From Akkermansiaceae bacterium (GTDB taxonomy: Bacteria > Verrucomicrobiota > Verrucomicrobiia > Verrucomicrobiales > Akkermansiaceae), in assembly GCA_029253285.1 (NCBI GenBank), contig JAQWZU010000119.1:1-64000 (forward strand): 64,000 nucleotides of DNA, read 5' to 3'. The number at the start of each line of letters is the position of its first letter. Position 1 is the stretch's first letter. Position numbers and translations under genes: made by a program. Below, piece after piece: positions 1,933 to 9,280 of the stretch. The notes beneath the pieces are model-generated. The model worked only from the letters and a program-made list of their open reading frames with translations. It did no database searches and was not told the DNA's origin.

Positions 1933-3126
1933 ATGAGCAAATCCTTCATTTTTTCATCCGAGTCTGTTGGCGAAGGCCATCCTGACAAAGTCTGTGATAC
2001 CATTTCAGACGCCATCCTCGACGCATGTCTCACTGTTGACAAGAACAGCCGTGTTGCTTGTGAAACCTTCGTGAAGTCTAACCAAGTCGTCGTCGGGGGA
2101 GAGATCACCATTCCTAAGATCGGCCAAAAGCCCATCAGCTCGGTGATTAATGTCGAAGGAGTAATTCGTGAAGCGATCCGGGGGATCGGTTACACCAACG
2201 AAGATGACATTTTTCACGCGGACAGCGTGTTCATTAATAATTTCCTTACCGTCCAGTCCCCTGACATCGCCCAGGGTGTCGATGCCAAGAAGGCAAAAGG
2301 CAAGAAGACCGAGGAACAGGGTGCCGGAGACCAAGGGATCATGTTTGGATATGCTTGCGATGAAACTCCCGAGCTCATGCCTTCACCGATCATGTTTGCG
2401 CACCGCCTTGGTCGTGAATTGACCAAGATCCGCAAAGCGGGTCGGCAGGCCAAGTGGCTTCGCCCTGATGCCAAGAGCCAGGTCGCGGTCGAATACGTCA
2501 ATGGAAAGCCCACTCGCATTGTGAACGTTGTGATCTCAACCCAGCACGCTGCTGATGTGGATCACGCCACGATTGAGAAATTCTGCATCGAGAAGGTGAT
2601 CAAAAAAGTTCTTCCAAAGAAGATGCTTACCAAGGACACCGAATACCTTATCAACCCGACCGGACAATTCGTTATCGGCGGACCACAGGGAGATTCCGGT
2701 CTGACCGGTCGCAAGATTATCGTGGATACCTACGGTGGATGGGGACGTCATGGTGGTGGAGCTTTTTCAGGGAAAGATCCATCAAAAGTAGACCGCTCAG
2801 CGGCCTACATGGGACGTTGGGTTGCGAAGAATATCGTAGCGGCAGGTCTCGCGCCAATCTGCGAAATCCAGTTCGCCTACGCCATTGGCCATCCGAAGCC
2901 GTTGAGCATCAATATCGACACTTTTGATACGGGTGATGACGAGAAAATCCTCGCAGCAGTGGAGAAAGTTTTTTCCTTCAAACCTGCCGATATTGTCAAG
3001 CAGCTCAAACTTCTTCGCCCGATCTATTCTTCTTCAACCAACTACGGGCACTTTGGAAAAGAAGATGCCGACCTTCCCTGGGAGCAAATCAACAAGGTAG
3101 TTGCCCTCAAAAAAGCTTACAAATAA
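1933..3126 (+). CDS. metK: S-adenosylmethionine synthetase
   Basis: The enzyme joins methionine and ATP to make S-adenosylmethionine in the cytoplasm. The 397-residue length is normal for bacterial MetK. Recognisable motifs are GEGHPDK (13-19, ATP/methionine site), [12 protein letters not shown] (near 130) and the glycine-rich [19 protein letters not shown] (near 275). The ATG at 1933 starts directly at the family N-terminus; no strong Shine-Dalgarno precedes it. ahcY follows after 15 bases, so the two form a SAM-cycle operon. The divergent ArsR-methyltransferase gene is the likely regulator. Confidence 0.97.
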
Positions 3127-3141
3127 TCACCTCAAAAAATC

Positions 3142-4560
3142 ATGTCAGATTACAAAATTAAAGACATCGGCGAAGCCGATTTTGGTCGCAAGGAGCTCGA
3201 CGTTGCCGAACACGAGATGCCCGGCCTCATGGCCACCCGTGAGAAGTATGGTCCCGCGAAGCCTCTCGATGGCGTGCGCGTCATGGGTTCGCTTCACATG
3301 ACTATTCAGACTGCGGTTCTCATTGAAACGCTCAAGGATCTTGGTGGCGATGTCCGCTGGTGTTCTTGCAATATTTTCTCAACCCAGGATCATGCTGCGG
3401 CAGCGATCGTTGAATCCGGCACGCCTGTTTTCGCCTGGAAAGGGGAGACCCTCGAGGAATACTGGTGGTGCACCTGGCAGGCTCTGCAATTTCCGAATCC
3501 AGATGGCGACCTGCCACTTGGGCCTCAGTTGATTGTTGATGATGGAGGTGATGCCACTCTTCTCCTTCACAAAGGATACGAACTTGAAAACGGGTCAGAT
3601 TGGGTCAACGAGCCTGCTGGTTCGACCGAAGAGGCTGTCATTAAGGCTCTCCTTAAAGATATTCACGCCAAGCAGCCTGGAATTTTCCACGCTTGGATTC
3701 CCGAGCTCAAAGGTGTTTCGGAGGAGACCACCACCGGTGTCCACCGCCTCTACCAGATGCAGCGTGACGGCAAGCTTCTCATTCCTGCCATCAACGTGAA
3801 TGACTCTGTCACCAAGTCAAAATTCGATAACCTTTACGGTTGCCGTGAGTCGCTCATCGACGGCATCAAGCGTGCCACCGACGTCATGATCTCCGGCAAG
3901 GTGGGTGTTGTTTGCGGATTCGGCGATGTCGGAAAAGGCTGTGCCCAAGCCCTCCGTGCTCAGGGTGCACAAGTCGTCGTGACTGAAGTTGATCCAATCT
4001 GCGCGCTTCAAGCGGCCATGGAAGGATTCCGTGTTCTCACCGTCGAAGACACTCTTGGCTGGGGAGACATCTACGTCACTACCACAGGTAACTTCAACAT
4101 CATCCGGGCCGAGCACATGGAGAAGATGAAAGACCAGGCCATCGTTTGTAATATCGGTCACTTCGATAATGAGATTCAGATTGCCGAGCTCGAAGCACTC
4201 GACGGAATCCAGAAACTCAACATCAAGCCACAGGTTGATCGTTATACCTTTGCCGATGGTAACAGCATCTACATGCTTGCCGAAGGTCGTCTTGTGAATC
4301 TTGGGTGTGCTACGGGTCACCCGAGCTTCGTGATGTCGAATAGCTTCACCAACCAGACCCTCGCTCAGATTGCCCTCTGGGAAACCAAGGACAGCCGTGA
4401 AGTTGGGGTGGAAGTTCTCTCCAAGGAACTCGATGAGGAGGTGGCAAGACTTCACCTTGATAAGATCGGCGCCAAGCTGACCAAGCTGACCAAGGAACAG
4501 GCCGAATACATCGATGTCCCCGTCGATGGCCCCTACAAGCCTGAACTCTACCGCTACTAG
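3142..4560 (+). CDS. ahcY: Adenosylhomocysteinase (SAH hydrolase)
   Basis: The enzyme splits S-adenosylhomocysteine into adenosine and homocysteine and so relieves product inhibition of methyltransferases. The 472-residue protein shows the long bacterial form. Features are the substrate-site stretch [14 protein letters not shown], the NAD-binding Rossmann loop GFGDVGKG (near 260), [12 protein letters not shown], and a C-terminal PYKPELYRY tail that reaches into the neighbouring subunit's NAD site. It sits 15 bases after metK and is followed by an intrinsic terminator at 4582-4610, so metK-ahcY is a closed two-gene operon. Confidence 0.97.
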
Positions 4561-4723: not shown

Positions 4724-6802
4724 TCACTCCTTCGGGAGGTGTGGCTCAAGGCTGGAGGAACGGGCTTGCTCGGCGGCGGCGGCCTGGCGGGCGAAGAGGT
4801 CGGCGAGGTGTTCCTGCATGCGGAATTTGCGTTCCCCCTTTTTGCGCTTTTTGGGTTTGGAAGTGCCGTCGGCTTGAATGAGGCAGGCGTTTTGGTTGTC
4901 TTTGAAACAGGCGTTGAGGATGTCGATGAGGAGTTTTTTGTCCTTCGCACCCAAGATGGGCGTCATGAGCTCGACGCGTTTTTCGAGGTTGCGGCTCATC
5001 CAGTCGGCTGAGCTGATGAAGACTTCGTTGTCGCCACCCTGATGGAAATAGAAGATTCGCATGTGCTCGAGTTGTTGGTCGACGATGGAGACAACTTCGA
5101 TGTTCTTGGCCTCCTTGCGTTCACCGGTTTTGAGGCAGCAAATGCCACGGATGTTGAGTTGGATTTTAACCCCCGCTTTGGAGGCTCGATAGAGGGCTTC
5201 GATCATGTCGATGTCTTCGAGGGAATTCATCTTGGCCATGATGTGGGCTGTTTCACCTTCCAGGGCGCGGGCTGTTTCTTCTTCGATGAGGGCGATGAGG
5301 GTCCGCTTGATTTGGGTGGGAGCTGGGACGAGGACTTTGAAGTGTTCTAGTTTGGTGCGCCCGGTGACGGCGTTGAAGAAGATGGACGCGTCGGAGCCGA
5401 AGTCGGGGCGGGCAGTGAAGTAAGAGATGTCGGTGTAGAAACGGGCGGTGAGTTCGTTGTAGTTTCCCGTGGCCAGGTGGACGTAGCGGCGGAGGTGTCC
5501 ATCTTCGCGGCGGATGACCAGAGAGATTTTGGCGTGGGTTTTGAGACCCTTCACTCCGTAAATGACCTGGGCTCCGGCGCGACGGAGTTCTTCGGCGCGT
5601 TCGAGATTGGGGGCTTCGTCGAAGCGGGCTTTGAGTTCGACTAGGGCCGTAACTTGCTTACCGGCTTTGGCGGCGCGGATGAGGGCGTCGACGATTTGCG
5701 AATCTTTTGCGGTTCGGTAGAGAGTTTGTTTGATCGCAATGACGTTCGGATCAGTGGCCGCCTCTTCCATAAAGCGCACGACCGGGCGGTAGCTTTGGTA
5801 GGGGTGGATAAGGGTGAGGTCTTGCTCTGAGATGAGATCGAAGAGACTGCGGGAGGGATCGATCTTAGGTGAATCCACACCAGAGAGGGGAGCGGTGCGG
5901 AGGTGCGAAAAGCCGTCGATGAGGGCGAGTTCGAAGAGGTCGGCGAGAGCGAGGGGAGCTTTGGTGAGGAAGACTTTGGGGATGTCGATTTTGAGGAGCG
6001 AAATGAGATCCTGAGTGAGCTTGTTGTCCTCGGAAAGCTGCAACCGGACCGGGAAGGATTGGCCTCGTTCGGTGATGACATTGCGGATTTCTTCGGCGAA
6101 GTCGTGTGCTTCGTCTTCGTTGGCGGGAATGTCGGTGTTGCGGGTGAGACGGAAAGTTGTCAGTTCAGTGACTTCTTCACCGGGAAAGAGGTTCCCGCAA
6201 AGATGGGCGGTGAGGTCTTCGAGGAAGATGAATCCACCTTCGTTGAGAACGAGCATTCTCGGAACGCTGGAGGGGAGGGGGAGAACGATGATGCGGGATT
6301 CCTTGGTTTCGGGATCGTAGACGCGGAGGGCAATGCAGACGGAGAGGGAGGGGATGATTTCCCGGGCGTTTTCCGGAGTGAGCAGGAGGGGTGAGAGCAG
6401 CGGAGAGATTTCGTGCTGGAAGGTGTGAACGAGTCTTTCGAATTGATCCGGGGAGAGCTCCGGAATGCTGAGGTGAGGGAGTCCGCTTTGGTGAAGAGAG
6501 GGGAGGAGTTCTTTGAGGTAGAGCTTCTCCTGATCTTTGGCGAAGCGACGGGTGCGTTTTTCGATGGCGCTGAGTTGTTCGCTGACATCGCGTCCCGAGG
6601 GGTCCGTGAAGCCGGGGACTGATTCGCAGAGTGAGAGGAGGCCACCGATGCGGACCTGGAAAAATTCGTCGAGATTGGAACCGGAGATTGCGAGAAATTT
6701 CACCCGGTCCAAGAGGGGCAAGTCAGGCCGCTGGGCTTGATTGAGGACACGTTGGTTGAATTCCAACCAAGAAAGTTCGCGGTTGATGTAGGCGATGGGC
6801 AT
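4724..6802 (-). CDS. ppk1: Polyphosphate kinase 1
   Basis: PPK1 reversibly transfers the gamma phosphate of ATP to inorganic polyphosphate. The 692-residue length is normal. The N-terminal domain opens with YINRELSWLEFNQRVL, the FLAISGSNLDEFFQVR segment follows, and the two phospholipase-D-like catalytic domains contain KTHAKISLVIRRE (the His of THAK, near 420, is the autophosphorylated residue in the family), YVHLATGNYN and ISSADWMSRNLEKRVEL. The C-terminal tail is rich in Lys/Arg and Ala. The gene starts three bases after the stop of the Ppx-like gene, so the two are cotranscribed. Confidence 0.96.
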   Translation of the reverse strand: MPIAYINRELSWLEFNQRVLNQAQRPDLPLLDRVKFLAISGSNLDEFFQVRIGGLLSLCESVPGFTDPSGRDVSEQLSAIEKRTRRFAKDQEKLYLKELLPSLHQSGLPHLSIPELSPDQFERLVHTFQHEISPLLSPLLLTPENAREIIPSLSVCIALRVYDPETKESRIIVLPLPSSVPRMLVLNEGGFIFLEDLTAHLCGNLFPGEEVTELTTFRLTRNTDIPANEDEAHDFAEEIRNVITERGQSFPVRLQLSEDNKLTQDLISLLKIDIPKVFLTKAPLALADLFELALIDGFSHLRTAPLSGVDSPKIDPSRSLFDLISEQDLTLIHPYQSYRPVVRFMEEAATDPNVIAIKQTLYRTAKDSQIVDALIRAAKAGKQVTALVELKARFDEAPNLERAEELRRAGAQVIYGVKGLKTHAKISLVIRREDGHLRRYVHLATGNYNELTARFYTDISYFTARPDFGSDASIFFNAVTGRTKLEHFKVLVPAPTQIKRTLIALIEEETARALEGETAHIMAKMNSLEDIDMIEALYRASKAGVKIQLNIRGICCLKTGERKEAKNIEVVSIVDQQLEHMRIFYFHQGGDNEVFISSADWMSRNLEKRVELMTPILGAKDKKLLIDILNACFKDNQNACLIQADGTSKPKKRKKGERKFRMQEHLADLFARQAAAAEQARSSSLEPHLPKE

Positions 6803-6805
6803 GGG

Positions 6806-8314
6806 TCAGGATTCTTTGATGTAAAGAGAGAGGCCGAAGAGGTTTTCGAATAGATCGGCCTTGCTGGGGAGGGCGAGGCGTTCGGCGGTGGCATCGAGAA
6901 TGCCTTCGAGGACGAGATGGGCTTTTGAGTCGGTGATTTCAACGGTGAGGTTTGTGACCCGCTGGGAATGGGTTCGTTCGAGGGCGTCGGCCACGCGGAT
7001 GAGGGCGGAGAGTTTGGCGACGCGAATACGATCTTCGGAATCGAGGTCCTGGTAGAAGCGGTGGGAGGTTTCGGGTTGTGACTTGCGGTGGTAACGGGTG
7101 ATGAGGGCAACAATGAGGCGGTCTGCTTCGCTGAGGCCGAAGATTTCCGAATGGCGGACGATGTAGAGGGAGTGGAGTTCGTGGGCTTTGGGTGAAATGT
7201 GGTTGCCGACTTCGTGGAGAATAGCGGCTACGTTGAGCAGAAGCGCGTCGTGTTCCGTGAGTTTGTGGAGAGATTGCGTTTCCTCGAAAAGTTGGCGCGA
7301 AAGGTGGGCGACGCGGCGGGCGTGTTTCAGGTCGACGCAATACCGTCGGGCGATGACCTCTGCCGAGTGGAACAATTGTTTAAGGAGCTCTTCTTTGAGA
7401 ATCGTGGGATGGGCTAGGTCGGTGAGTAGGCCTTTTTCGTAGTCGGAGCCGGGAACGCGGAGCGAGGTGAGTTCAAAGGACTCGGCAATGGCAGCATTGA
7501 TGACGAGAGCGGGAAGGGCGGAGCCCGAAGTTTGGTAATCGAGGGCGAATTGTTTGACCCGTTGGGCCTCGGTGGCCGCGGCGATGTTTTGGAGGAGTTG
7601 TTCGAGGATCTTGTAGCGCGATTTTGTTTTGTCTGGCTTCGAGAGAAAGGGCGAGAGCATTTGAATCTCGGTGCCGATCATGACGAGGTCTTCGACATCT
7701 TCGTCGCGAAAGTCGTAGGAGAGTTGCGCGATCATTCCGGAGATTTGTTCGCGGATGAGGCGGATGATTTGTTCGCCGAGAAGGTCGGGTGAGTTGAGTT
7801 GCTCCCAGGTCCGGTGGGTGCCGAGGCGGTAGGAATGGTAGCGAACGATTTGGCCATTTTTGAAAAGAAGGAGTCGGGTATTTCCTGGGCCAACGTGTGC
7901 TACGATGGTGTTGCGTTTCCGCATTGAGGGAGTGTCGCGGAGGCGGCGGCGGGTTTTGAGGAAAACGAGGCGCGTCATTTCTCCGTCGTCGAGTGGCTCA
8001 AAGCGCCAGCCGGCTGCGATTTGGAGGCGGTTGAGGAAGACCTCTGCGTTGGAGGCTTCGGTGAGGGTGTTGGTGGTGACGGCGCGAACGGGAATGTCCT
8101 TGAGCCCGAGTTCGGTGAGGGCCTCTTGAAAGCCGGAGATGACTTTGACCGCCTGTTCGATGGTTGTGGTGAGAACGTGGCCGTGGCTGAAAATGTCGCG
8201 CCCAAGGGGAATATTTTTTTCGAGAAAATCGATCATTTCCTCCCCTCCATCGTTGGTAATGGAGATGATGATCATGGAGGCGTGGCTTGCTCCAATGTGG
8301 ACCGCGGCTCTCAT
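6806..8314 (-). CDS. Ppx/GppA-like protein with HD domain, catalytic motifs degenerate
   Basis: The length (502 residues), the N-terminal AAV-x-IG start, and the C-terminal HD-type half (LLNVAAILHEVGNHIS, HSLYIVRHSEIFGLSE, ITRYHRKSQ) place this in the exopolyphosphatase/guanosine-pentaphosphatase family. The phosphate-binding loops differ strongly from the consensus I recall from E. coli Ppx: DLGSNS is HIGASH here, GNEEARLI is DGEMTRLV, and DIGGGSTEL is HVGPGNTRL. Loss of the aspartates and one glutamate suggests reduced or altered catalysis. It is three bases upstream of ppk1 in one operon. I chose the ATG at 8314 because it starts exactly at the family N-terminus; a TTG at 8380 would add 22 residues unlike the family. 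Confidence 0.8.
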   Translation of the reverse strand: MRAAVHIGASHASMIIISITNDGGEEMIDFLEKNIPLGRDIFSHGHVLTTTIEQAVKVISGFQEALTELGLKDIPVRAVTTNTLTEASNAEVFLNRLQIAAGWRFEPLDDGEMTRLVFLKTRRRLRDTPSMRKRNTIVAHVGPGNTRLLLFKNGQIVRYHSYRLGTHRTWEQLNSPDLLGEQIIRLIREQISGMIAQLSYDFRDEDVEDLVMIGTEIQMLSPFLSKPDKTKSRYKILEQLLQNIAAATEAQRVKQFALDYQTSGSALPALVINAAIAESFELTSLRVPGSDYEKGLLTDLAHPTILKEELLKQLFHSAEVIARRYCVDLKHARRVAHLSRQLFEETQSLHKLTEHDALLLNVAAILHEVGNHISPKAHELHSLYIVRHSEIFGLSEADRLIVALITRYHRKSQPETSHRFYQDLDSEDRIRVAKLSALIRVADALERTHSQRVTNLTVEITDSKAHLVLEGILDATAERLALPSKADLFENLFGLSLYIKES

Positions 8315-8446: not shown

Positions 8447-9280
8447 ATGGAATACCCTATGCTTGGTGATGAGTTTTACAGGCGTTGTTTTTTTTCCTCC
8501 GGCTCGGAGGTCGCGTTGAGTGAACGCTCAACGGAGACGACGGGGATTTTGAATGATCCGGAATCAGAGACTGCTCCGATTTTCGATGAACTGAGGGGGA
8601 AGCTGGCGCAATTACAGAAGGTGCTCTACGCGCAGGGAAAGCATAAGATTCTCATTGTGATCCAGGCAATGGATACGGGCGGTAAGGATGGCTGCGTGCG
8701 TAAGGTCTTTTCAAGAGTAGATCCGCAGGGGATCAAAGTGACTTCCTACAAAGGCCCGTCTGAGAAAGAATTGGCGCATGATTTTCTCTGGCGGATTCAT
8801 CAGAATGTTCCAGCAAGGGGTGAAATCGCGATTTTTAACCGGAGTCACTACGAGGACATTGTCGCGGTGAGGGTAAAAGGGCTGGCTCCGCAAGAGGTGT
8901 GGGAGAAACGCTACAAGCACATCATCGATTTCGAGCAGATGTTGGTGGATGAAGGGACGACGATTTTAAAATTCTTCCTCAACATCTCCAAGGAAGAGCA
9001 GCGGAAGCGATTGCAATCACGTCTGGATCGGCCCGAGAAGCATTGGAAATTTCATCCTGATGATCTGGCTGATCGGGCGAGGTGGGCGGATTTCATGGAG
9101 GCCTATGAAGATGTTCTGGAGAGAACGAGTACGCCGAGCGCGCCATGGTTTGTCATTCCGGCAGACTTTAAATGGTATCGGAACATGTGCGTTTCACAAA
9201 TCGTGACCCATGCCTTGGAGGGGCTGAATTTGGAGTATCCCAAAGTGCAATGGGACCCAAGTAAGGTGGTGGTGGAGTAA
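8447..9280 (+). CDS. Polyphosphate kinase 2 family phosphotransferase
   Basis: PPK2 enzymes use polyphosphate to phosphorylate nucleoside mono- or diphosphates. From the ATG at 8447 the protein has 277 residues, the usual single-domain size. It shows the Walker A-like MDTGGKDG (75-82), the Walker B-like NRSHYED (131-137), and a lid region rich in Arg/Lys (KEEQRKRLQSRLDRPEKHWK). The residues that decide AMP versus ADP preference were not resolved. It is transcribed away from the ppx-like/ppk1 operon, making a compact three-gene polyphosphate locus. The good ribosome binding site supports this start over the TTG at 8420. Confidence 0.92.
   Translation: MEYPMLGDEFYRRCFFSSGSEVALSERSTETTGILNDPESETAPIFDELRGKLAQLQKVLYAQGKHKILIVIQAMDTGGKDGCVRKVFSRVDPQGIKVTSYKGPSEKELAHDFLWRIHQNVPARGEIAIFNRSHYEDIVAVRVKGLAPQEVWEKRYKHIIDFEQMLVDEGTTILKFFLNISKEEQRKRLQSRLDRPEKHWKFHPDDLADRARWADFMEAYEDVLERTSTPSAPWFVIPADFKWYRNMCVSQIVTHALEGLNLEYPKVQWDPSKVVVE

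Follow-up and report, generated by a model that had tools for sequence, protein, structure and literature searches.

Exopolyphosphatases (Ppx), exemplified by the enzymes of Escherichia coli (PDB code 1u6z) and Deinococcus radiodurans (DrPPX; PDB code 8jgo), comprise two ASKHA domains (I-II) followed by an HD-like domain III; in E. coli, ppx shares an operon with ppk1. Single alanine substitutions in DrPPX lower the kcat/Km from 2.28 to 0.05 (D7), 0.05 (E114), 0.10 (D136) and 0.04 (E143) (PMC11234463, Table 2). The assignment of D7 to Mg2+ relies on docking and analogy; E114, D136 and E143 contact a water molecule in the crystal structures (PMC11234463). The pppGpp phosphatase GppA (E. coli, PDB code 6pbz; H. 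pylori, PDB code 6pc0) belongs to the same family and has the same domain architecture. A further member, yeast Rtg2p, is a regulator of retrograde signalling that needs and keeps E137 and D158, the equivalents of E121 and D143 in E. coli Ppx, and carries a glutamine (Q165) at the position of E150 (PMC5417653). According to the same study, the equivalent of E121 is found in 100% of the family alignment (PMC5417653). Here we describe ppxL, a Ppx/GppA-like gene adjacent to ppk1 within a 64,000-nucleotide stretch of DNA from an Akkermansiaceae bacterium (the window), whose product has the same domain order as Ppx and has lost the catalytic acids. A search of the literature on Ppx pseudoenzymes, ppk/ppx of Verrucomicrobiota and polyphosphate (polyP) in Akkermansia found no paper describing ppxL.

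The ppxL-ppk1 locus

The genes of the locus are the following:

6806..8314, (-) strand: ppxL, Ppx/GppA-like protein of 502 aa in which the catalytic acids are replaced, ATG start
4724..6802, (-) strand: ppk1, polyphosphate kinase 1, 692 aa, starting 3 nt after the ppxL stop
8447..9280, (+) strand: PPK2-family polyphosphate kinase (TIGR03709), upstream of ppxL and divergent from it

The contigs nearest to the window are those of Verrucomicrobia MAGs, such as TMED86, which is 97% identical. The ppk1 gene is apparently intact, with conserved catalytic residues that include H435 and H592. It follows ppxL, whereas in E. coli ppx lies downstream of ppk (ppk-ppx). In a named set of 80 contigs, which partly overlaps the order-level sequences analyzed below, ppk1 is directly downstream of ppxL in 67 of the 73 loci with room for it, and a PPK2-family gene is close and divergent in 51 of the 80. 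The initial annotation had described the two genes as cotranscribed; the 3-nt spacing and the linkage in relatives bear out an operon-partner arrangement, with cotranscription itself suggested by the spacing. Elsewhere in the window, the product of 955-1869 ((-) strand) looks like a fusion of an ArsR-type regulator with a SAM methyltransferase, and its gene is divergent from the apparent metK and ahcY (1933-4560, (+) strand).

Family membership and predicted fold

The ppxL product matches the Pfam profiles of Ppx-GppA (PF02541; 66.6 bits, cut-off 27, E 3e-18) and of Ppx-GppA domain III (PF21447; 100.9 bits, cut-off 27.3, E 9e-29), as well as HD and HD-CE. A model predicted with AlphaFold2 from 20 relatives (pLDDT 90.8) displays the full Ppx/GppA fold, which, together with two profiles over their curated cut-offs, places the protein within the family. 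In a Foldseek search of the PDB, the model matches E. coli Ppx best (1u6z; E 1.6e-24), at 22% identity along the full length; the two align over 483 residues with a VIA Z of 26.3 and a root mean square deviation of 6.2. At the sequence level, phmmer aligns residues 3-413 with residues 14-416 of 1u6z (E 9e-24).

Replacement of catalytic and polyP-contacting residues

Replacements are numbered as in E. coli Ppx and were read from the phmmer alignment to 1u6z and from a 142-row alignment. They concentrate in three motifs:

8276..8299, (-) strand: loop 1, HIGASHAS, residues 6-13; D17 (the Mg2+ ligand in E. coli) replaced by H6 and N21 by S10
7964..7993, (-) strand: helix motif LDDGEMTRLV, residues 108-117; E121 replaced by M113
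7868..7903, (-) strand: loop 2, VAHVGPGNTRLL, residues 138-149; D143 replaced by H140, S148 by N145 and E150 by R147

The changes proposed in the initial annotation (DLGSNS to HIGASH, EEARLI to EMTRLV and DIGGGSTEL to HVGPGNTRL) are all present in the 6806-8314 reading frame, and its view of a retained fold with lost acids agrees with the structural model and the alignments. The three motifs are nevertheless an incomplete list, since four classical polyP contacts are gone as well, and the full set of changes with respect to E. coli Ppx reads D17H, N21S, H24S, K42E, R93T (T85 in ppxL), E121M, D143H, S148N, E150R, R267T and R298E. The catalytic positions D17, E121, D143, E150 and R93 of exopolyphosphatases (EC 3.6.1.11) are thus occupied by H, M, H, R and T, with the polyP contacts also absent. 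Loops 1 and 2 retain no acidic residue.

A displacement of the acids by misalignment, which the annotation had named as a possible refutation, can be ruled out. The loops align to E. coli Ppx without gaps, the first glutamate of EMTRLV pairs with E120 and not with the catalytic E121, and this nearby residue, E112, is not conserved across the clade, where E, D or K occurs. The equivalents of DrPPX D7, E114, D136 and E143 are replaced together in every sequence of the clade that was read, for which the reported universal presence of the E121 equivalent does not hold. Because the acids that bind Mg2+ and position the water are gone, the site should not hydrolyze its substrate by the Ppx mechanism. 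Judged from these residues, ppxL has probably ceased to degrade polyP and taken on a new role as a conserved partner.

Origin and conservation of the altered type

A ppxL match is present in 92 of 142 genomes of the order Verrucomicrobiales, with long intact frames in nearly all. In a tree from which the motif columns were excluded, the altered sequences form a single clade (SH-aLRT 98); the altered type arose once, inside Verrucomicrobiales. Residues were counted in 48 distinct sequences of the order (49 rows, as one locus is present twice). M113 and, in loop 2, H140, G142, P143, G144, N145 and R147 are invariant in all 48, and the same seven positions are invariant in the 80 named contigs with the exception of one N145S. 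The changes are therefore fixed in a clade, a point that the initial annotation had marked for checking. The mean column identity reaches 0.89 in motif 108-117 and 0.86 in loop 138-149, compared with 0.56 over residues 1-300, and the dN/dS values range from 0.03 to 0.12 in pairs with unsaturated dS. The single origin, the near-invariance of the new residues, the low dN/dS and the linkage to ppk1 all argue that the change of residues is not decay.

Among the isolates with ppxL are Roseibacillus persicicus, Luteolibacter pohnpeiensis and Haloferula rosea. The 16S primer site AM1 of Akkermansia muciniphila occurs in three copies in two genomes. A genome that looks like A. muciniphila carries ppxL, seemingly as its sole Ppx-family protein, with a score of 26.2 bits that lies just under the Pfam Ppx-GppA cut-off of 27.

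The other Verrucomicrobiota relatives (L046-L145) are mostly located beside ppk1, like ppxL, and group with the altered clade on a long branch, apart from both E. coli Ppx and the canonical L065. They differ from ppxL in that position 17 is still acidic and R93 is usually kept, with E121, D143 or E150 lost singly or in pairs. The minimum number of changes on the tree is five for E121, five for D143 and nine for E150. Only 7 of 90 other relatives keep all of D17, R93, E121, D143 and E150 (with Asp or Glu allowed at 17, 143 and 150), and K42 and R267 are lost nearly throughout the family. Several lineages of the family have thus moved away from the standard chemistry, and Verrucomicrobiales is the extreme, re-fixed case. 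The reverse pattern is seen in a related lineage (L073-L075, L140, L143 and L144), whose members have lost most ligands of the HD site in domain III and keep D17, R93, E121 and mostly D143.

Polyphosphate genes of the order

PPK1 was found in 139 of the 142 order genomes and PPK2 in 126; among those with ppxL, several gave no PPK2 match. Of nine PPK1s taken from genomes in which ppxL is absent, six fall outside the clade of ppxL-linked PPK1s; therefore, a genome tends to have either both ppxL and its PPK1 or neither. These six (L236-L240 and L243, from G002, G003, G007, G012, G023 and G047) belong to a separate clade, and a wholesale replacement of the ppxL-ppk1 unit is possible in these genomes. 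PPK1 does not strictly need ppxL, since a linked-clade PPK1 is kept in the absence of ppxL in two cases (L241 and L244) and some other genomes carry both genes apart. A replaced PPK1 was ruled out for the Akkermansia-like genomes with a non-adjacent ppxL, whose PPK1 groups with the linked ones.

No second Ppx/GppA homologue was found in the window genome, which is 97% complete; the initial annotation had proposed to look for a canonical one. In the order, ppxL is the sole Ppx/GppA match in nearly all genomes where PF02541 matches; G133 has both types, G031 has only a short canonical one, and three further genomes have weak, partial second matches. CHAD polyP-binding proteins have no match in the window genome. 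The same applies to RelA/SpoT (PF04607), which was detected in 11 of 14 control genomes and in 15 of 289 Verrucomicrobiota genomes, mostly in open frames shorter than 400 aa. Signalling by (p)ppGpp in the phylum, if any, thus appears patchy from the profile matches, and the scarcity of RelA/SpoT in the phylum is also cited elsewhere (PMC3153485).

A proposed ligand-binding partner of PPK1

The reading that we favor, with a probability of about one half, is that ppxL is a pseudoenzyme derived from Ppx, which binds a phosphate-type ligand and serves PPK1-based polyP metabolism as a partner or regulator. In this view, a Ppx/GppA protein linked to ppk1 in ancestral Verrucomicrobiota would have lost the Mg2+-binding and water-positioning acids, after which Verrucomicrobiales would have rebuilt the same loops once, as HVGPGNTR and DDGxMTR, so that a site once acidic and dependent on Mg2+ became basic and free of acids. 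The rebuilt site could plausibly still hold a phosphate group (a polyP end, a nucleotide or Pi) in the absence of Ppx-type hydrolysis. Occupancy by the ligand would alter the cleft together with domain III and would thereby control or physically assist the co-encoded PPK1, with polyP being consumed by PPK2 rather than by Ppx. This role of PPK2 cannot be universal, because several ppxL genomes lack a PPK2 match.

As the residues known to contact polyP have also been replaced, the ligand may be something other than polyP. Three functions had been offered in the initial annotation, of which a PPK1-linked regulator fits best. A polyP sensor that uses the classical polyP tunnel is weakened by the loss of all four polyP-contacting positions tested (H24, K42, R267 and R298), and a phosphatase with another mechanism stays among the candidates weighed below. 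A regulatory role has a precedent in the family, as Rtg2p is a regulator; like ppxL it is changed at the E150 position, but the equivalents of E121 and D143 that it needs are both replaced in ppxL.

Domain III as a possible alternative catalytic site

6809..7402, (-) strand: domain III (HD-like) and C-terminus, with conserved H331, H367-E368, H378, H381, H409 and D443

The HD-type half is well kept, including LHEVGNHIS and RYHRKS, as originally noted. This raises the alternative that the active site was relocated, in that a ppk1-linked scaffold of Verrucomicrobiota gave up the ASKHA site, domain III became or stayed a metal-dependent HD phosphohydrolase acting in polyP or nucleotide turnover, and the ASKHA half serves in substrate binding or dimerization, with the HVGPGNTR loop as an allosteric pocket. 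H331, H367, E368, H378, H381, H409 and D443 are each present in 49 of 49 altered rows, whereas the corresponding residues of E. coli Ppx are Q, H, E, L, H, H and V, three of them different, so that the metal-ligand pattern is the more complete in ppxL. Modelled alone with AlphaFold2 (pLDDT 92.0), the domain first matches Ppx domain III (Z 21.6) and next HD-superfamily proteins, SAMHD1, HD-GYP and YpgQ among them (Z about 9.5-11), in line with its Pfam HD and HD-CE matches. Moreover, with the altered clade left out, D143/E150 are lost in 47 of 55 relatives with a true HD motif and in 0 of 29 with HE.

The H...HD...D pattern is represented in ppxL by H331, H367 and D443, along with three more histidines, yet the central motif is HE and not HD, as in canonical Ppx. 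The clade of the window is hence the exception to the correlation, which in its strict form was rejected, as the counts are suggestive but it rests on two supported independent pairs and is not significant. In addition, DrPPX, which works through its ASKHA site, carries the HE motif and shares several of these histidines, so that the residues need not imply catalysis. We consider a relocated site unlikely, although it is the main rival of the favored reading.

Further alternatives

The rebuilt ASKHA loop could itself be an active site of a new type, with H140 as a phosphohistidine acceptor and R147 as a transition-state clamp in a phosphotransferase or a Mg2+-free hydrolase. The near-complete invariance of M113, H140, N145 and R147 exceeds what a plain binding pocket might need, and PPK1 itself works through a phosphohistidine. 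However, loops 1 and 2 offer no acid for Mg2+ binding or water activation, the polyP contacts are lost, and the literature search found no precedent, which makes this chemistry decidedly improbable.

It is still harder to credit that ppxL is an ordinary exopolyphosphatase or GppA despite the changes. The Ppx fold, the operon position of a Ppx and the lack of another Ppx/GppA match for the task in the genome speak for it; against it, four acids that are each required for most of the DrPPX activity are replaced at once. The acids lost in ppxL are also those of GppA, and a GppA function is unlikely because the genome has no match to RelA/SpoT, the source of pppGpp, as is the case for 274 of the 289 genomes of the phylum. 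A decaying, functionless relic, to which the lost catalytic residues and the absence of the gene from some genomes of the order might point, can be dismissed in view of the purifying selection, the invariant replacements and the intact frames.

Significance

The regulation of PPK1 is poorly understood. As the pseudoenzyme that we favor, a conserved, catalytically stripped Ppx encoded together with ppk1, ppxL would be a ready-made candidate for a PPK1 regulator, and the annotation "ppx" in gene surveys of Verrucomicrobiota need not imply polyP degradation.
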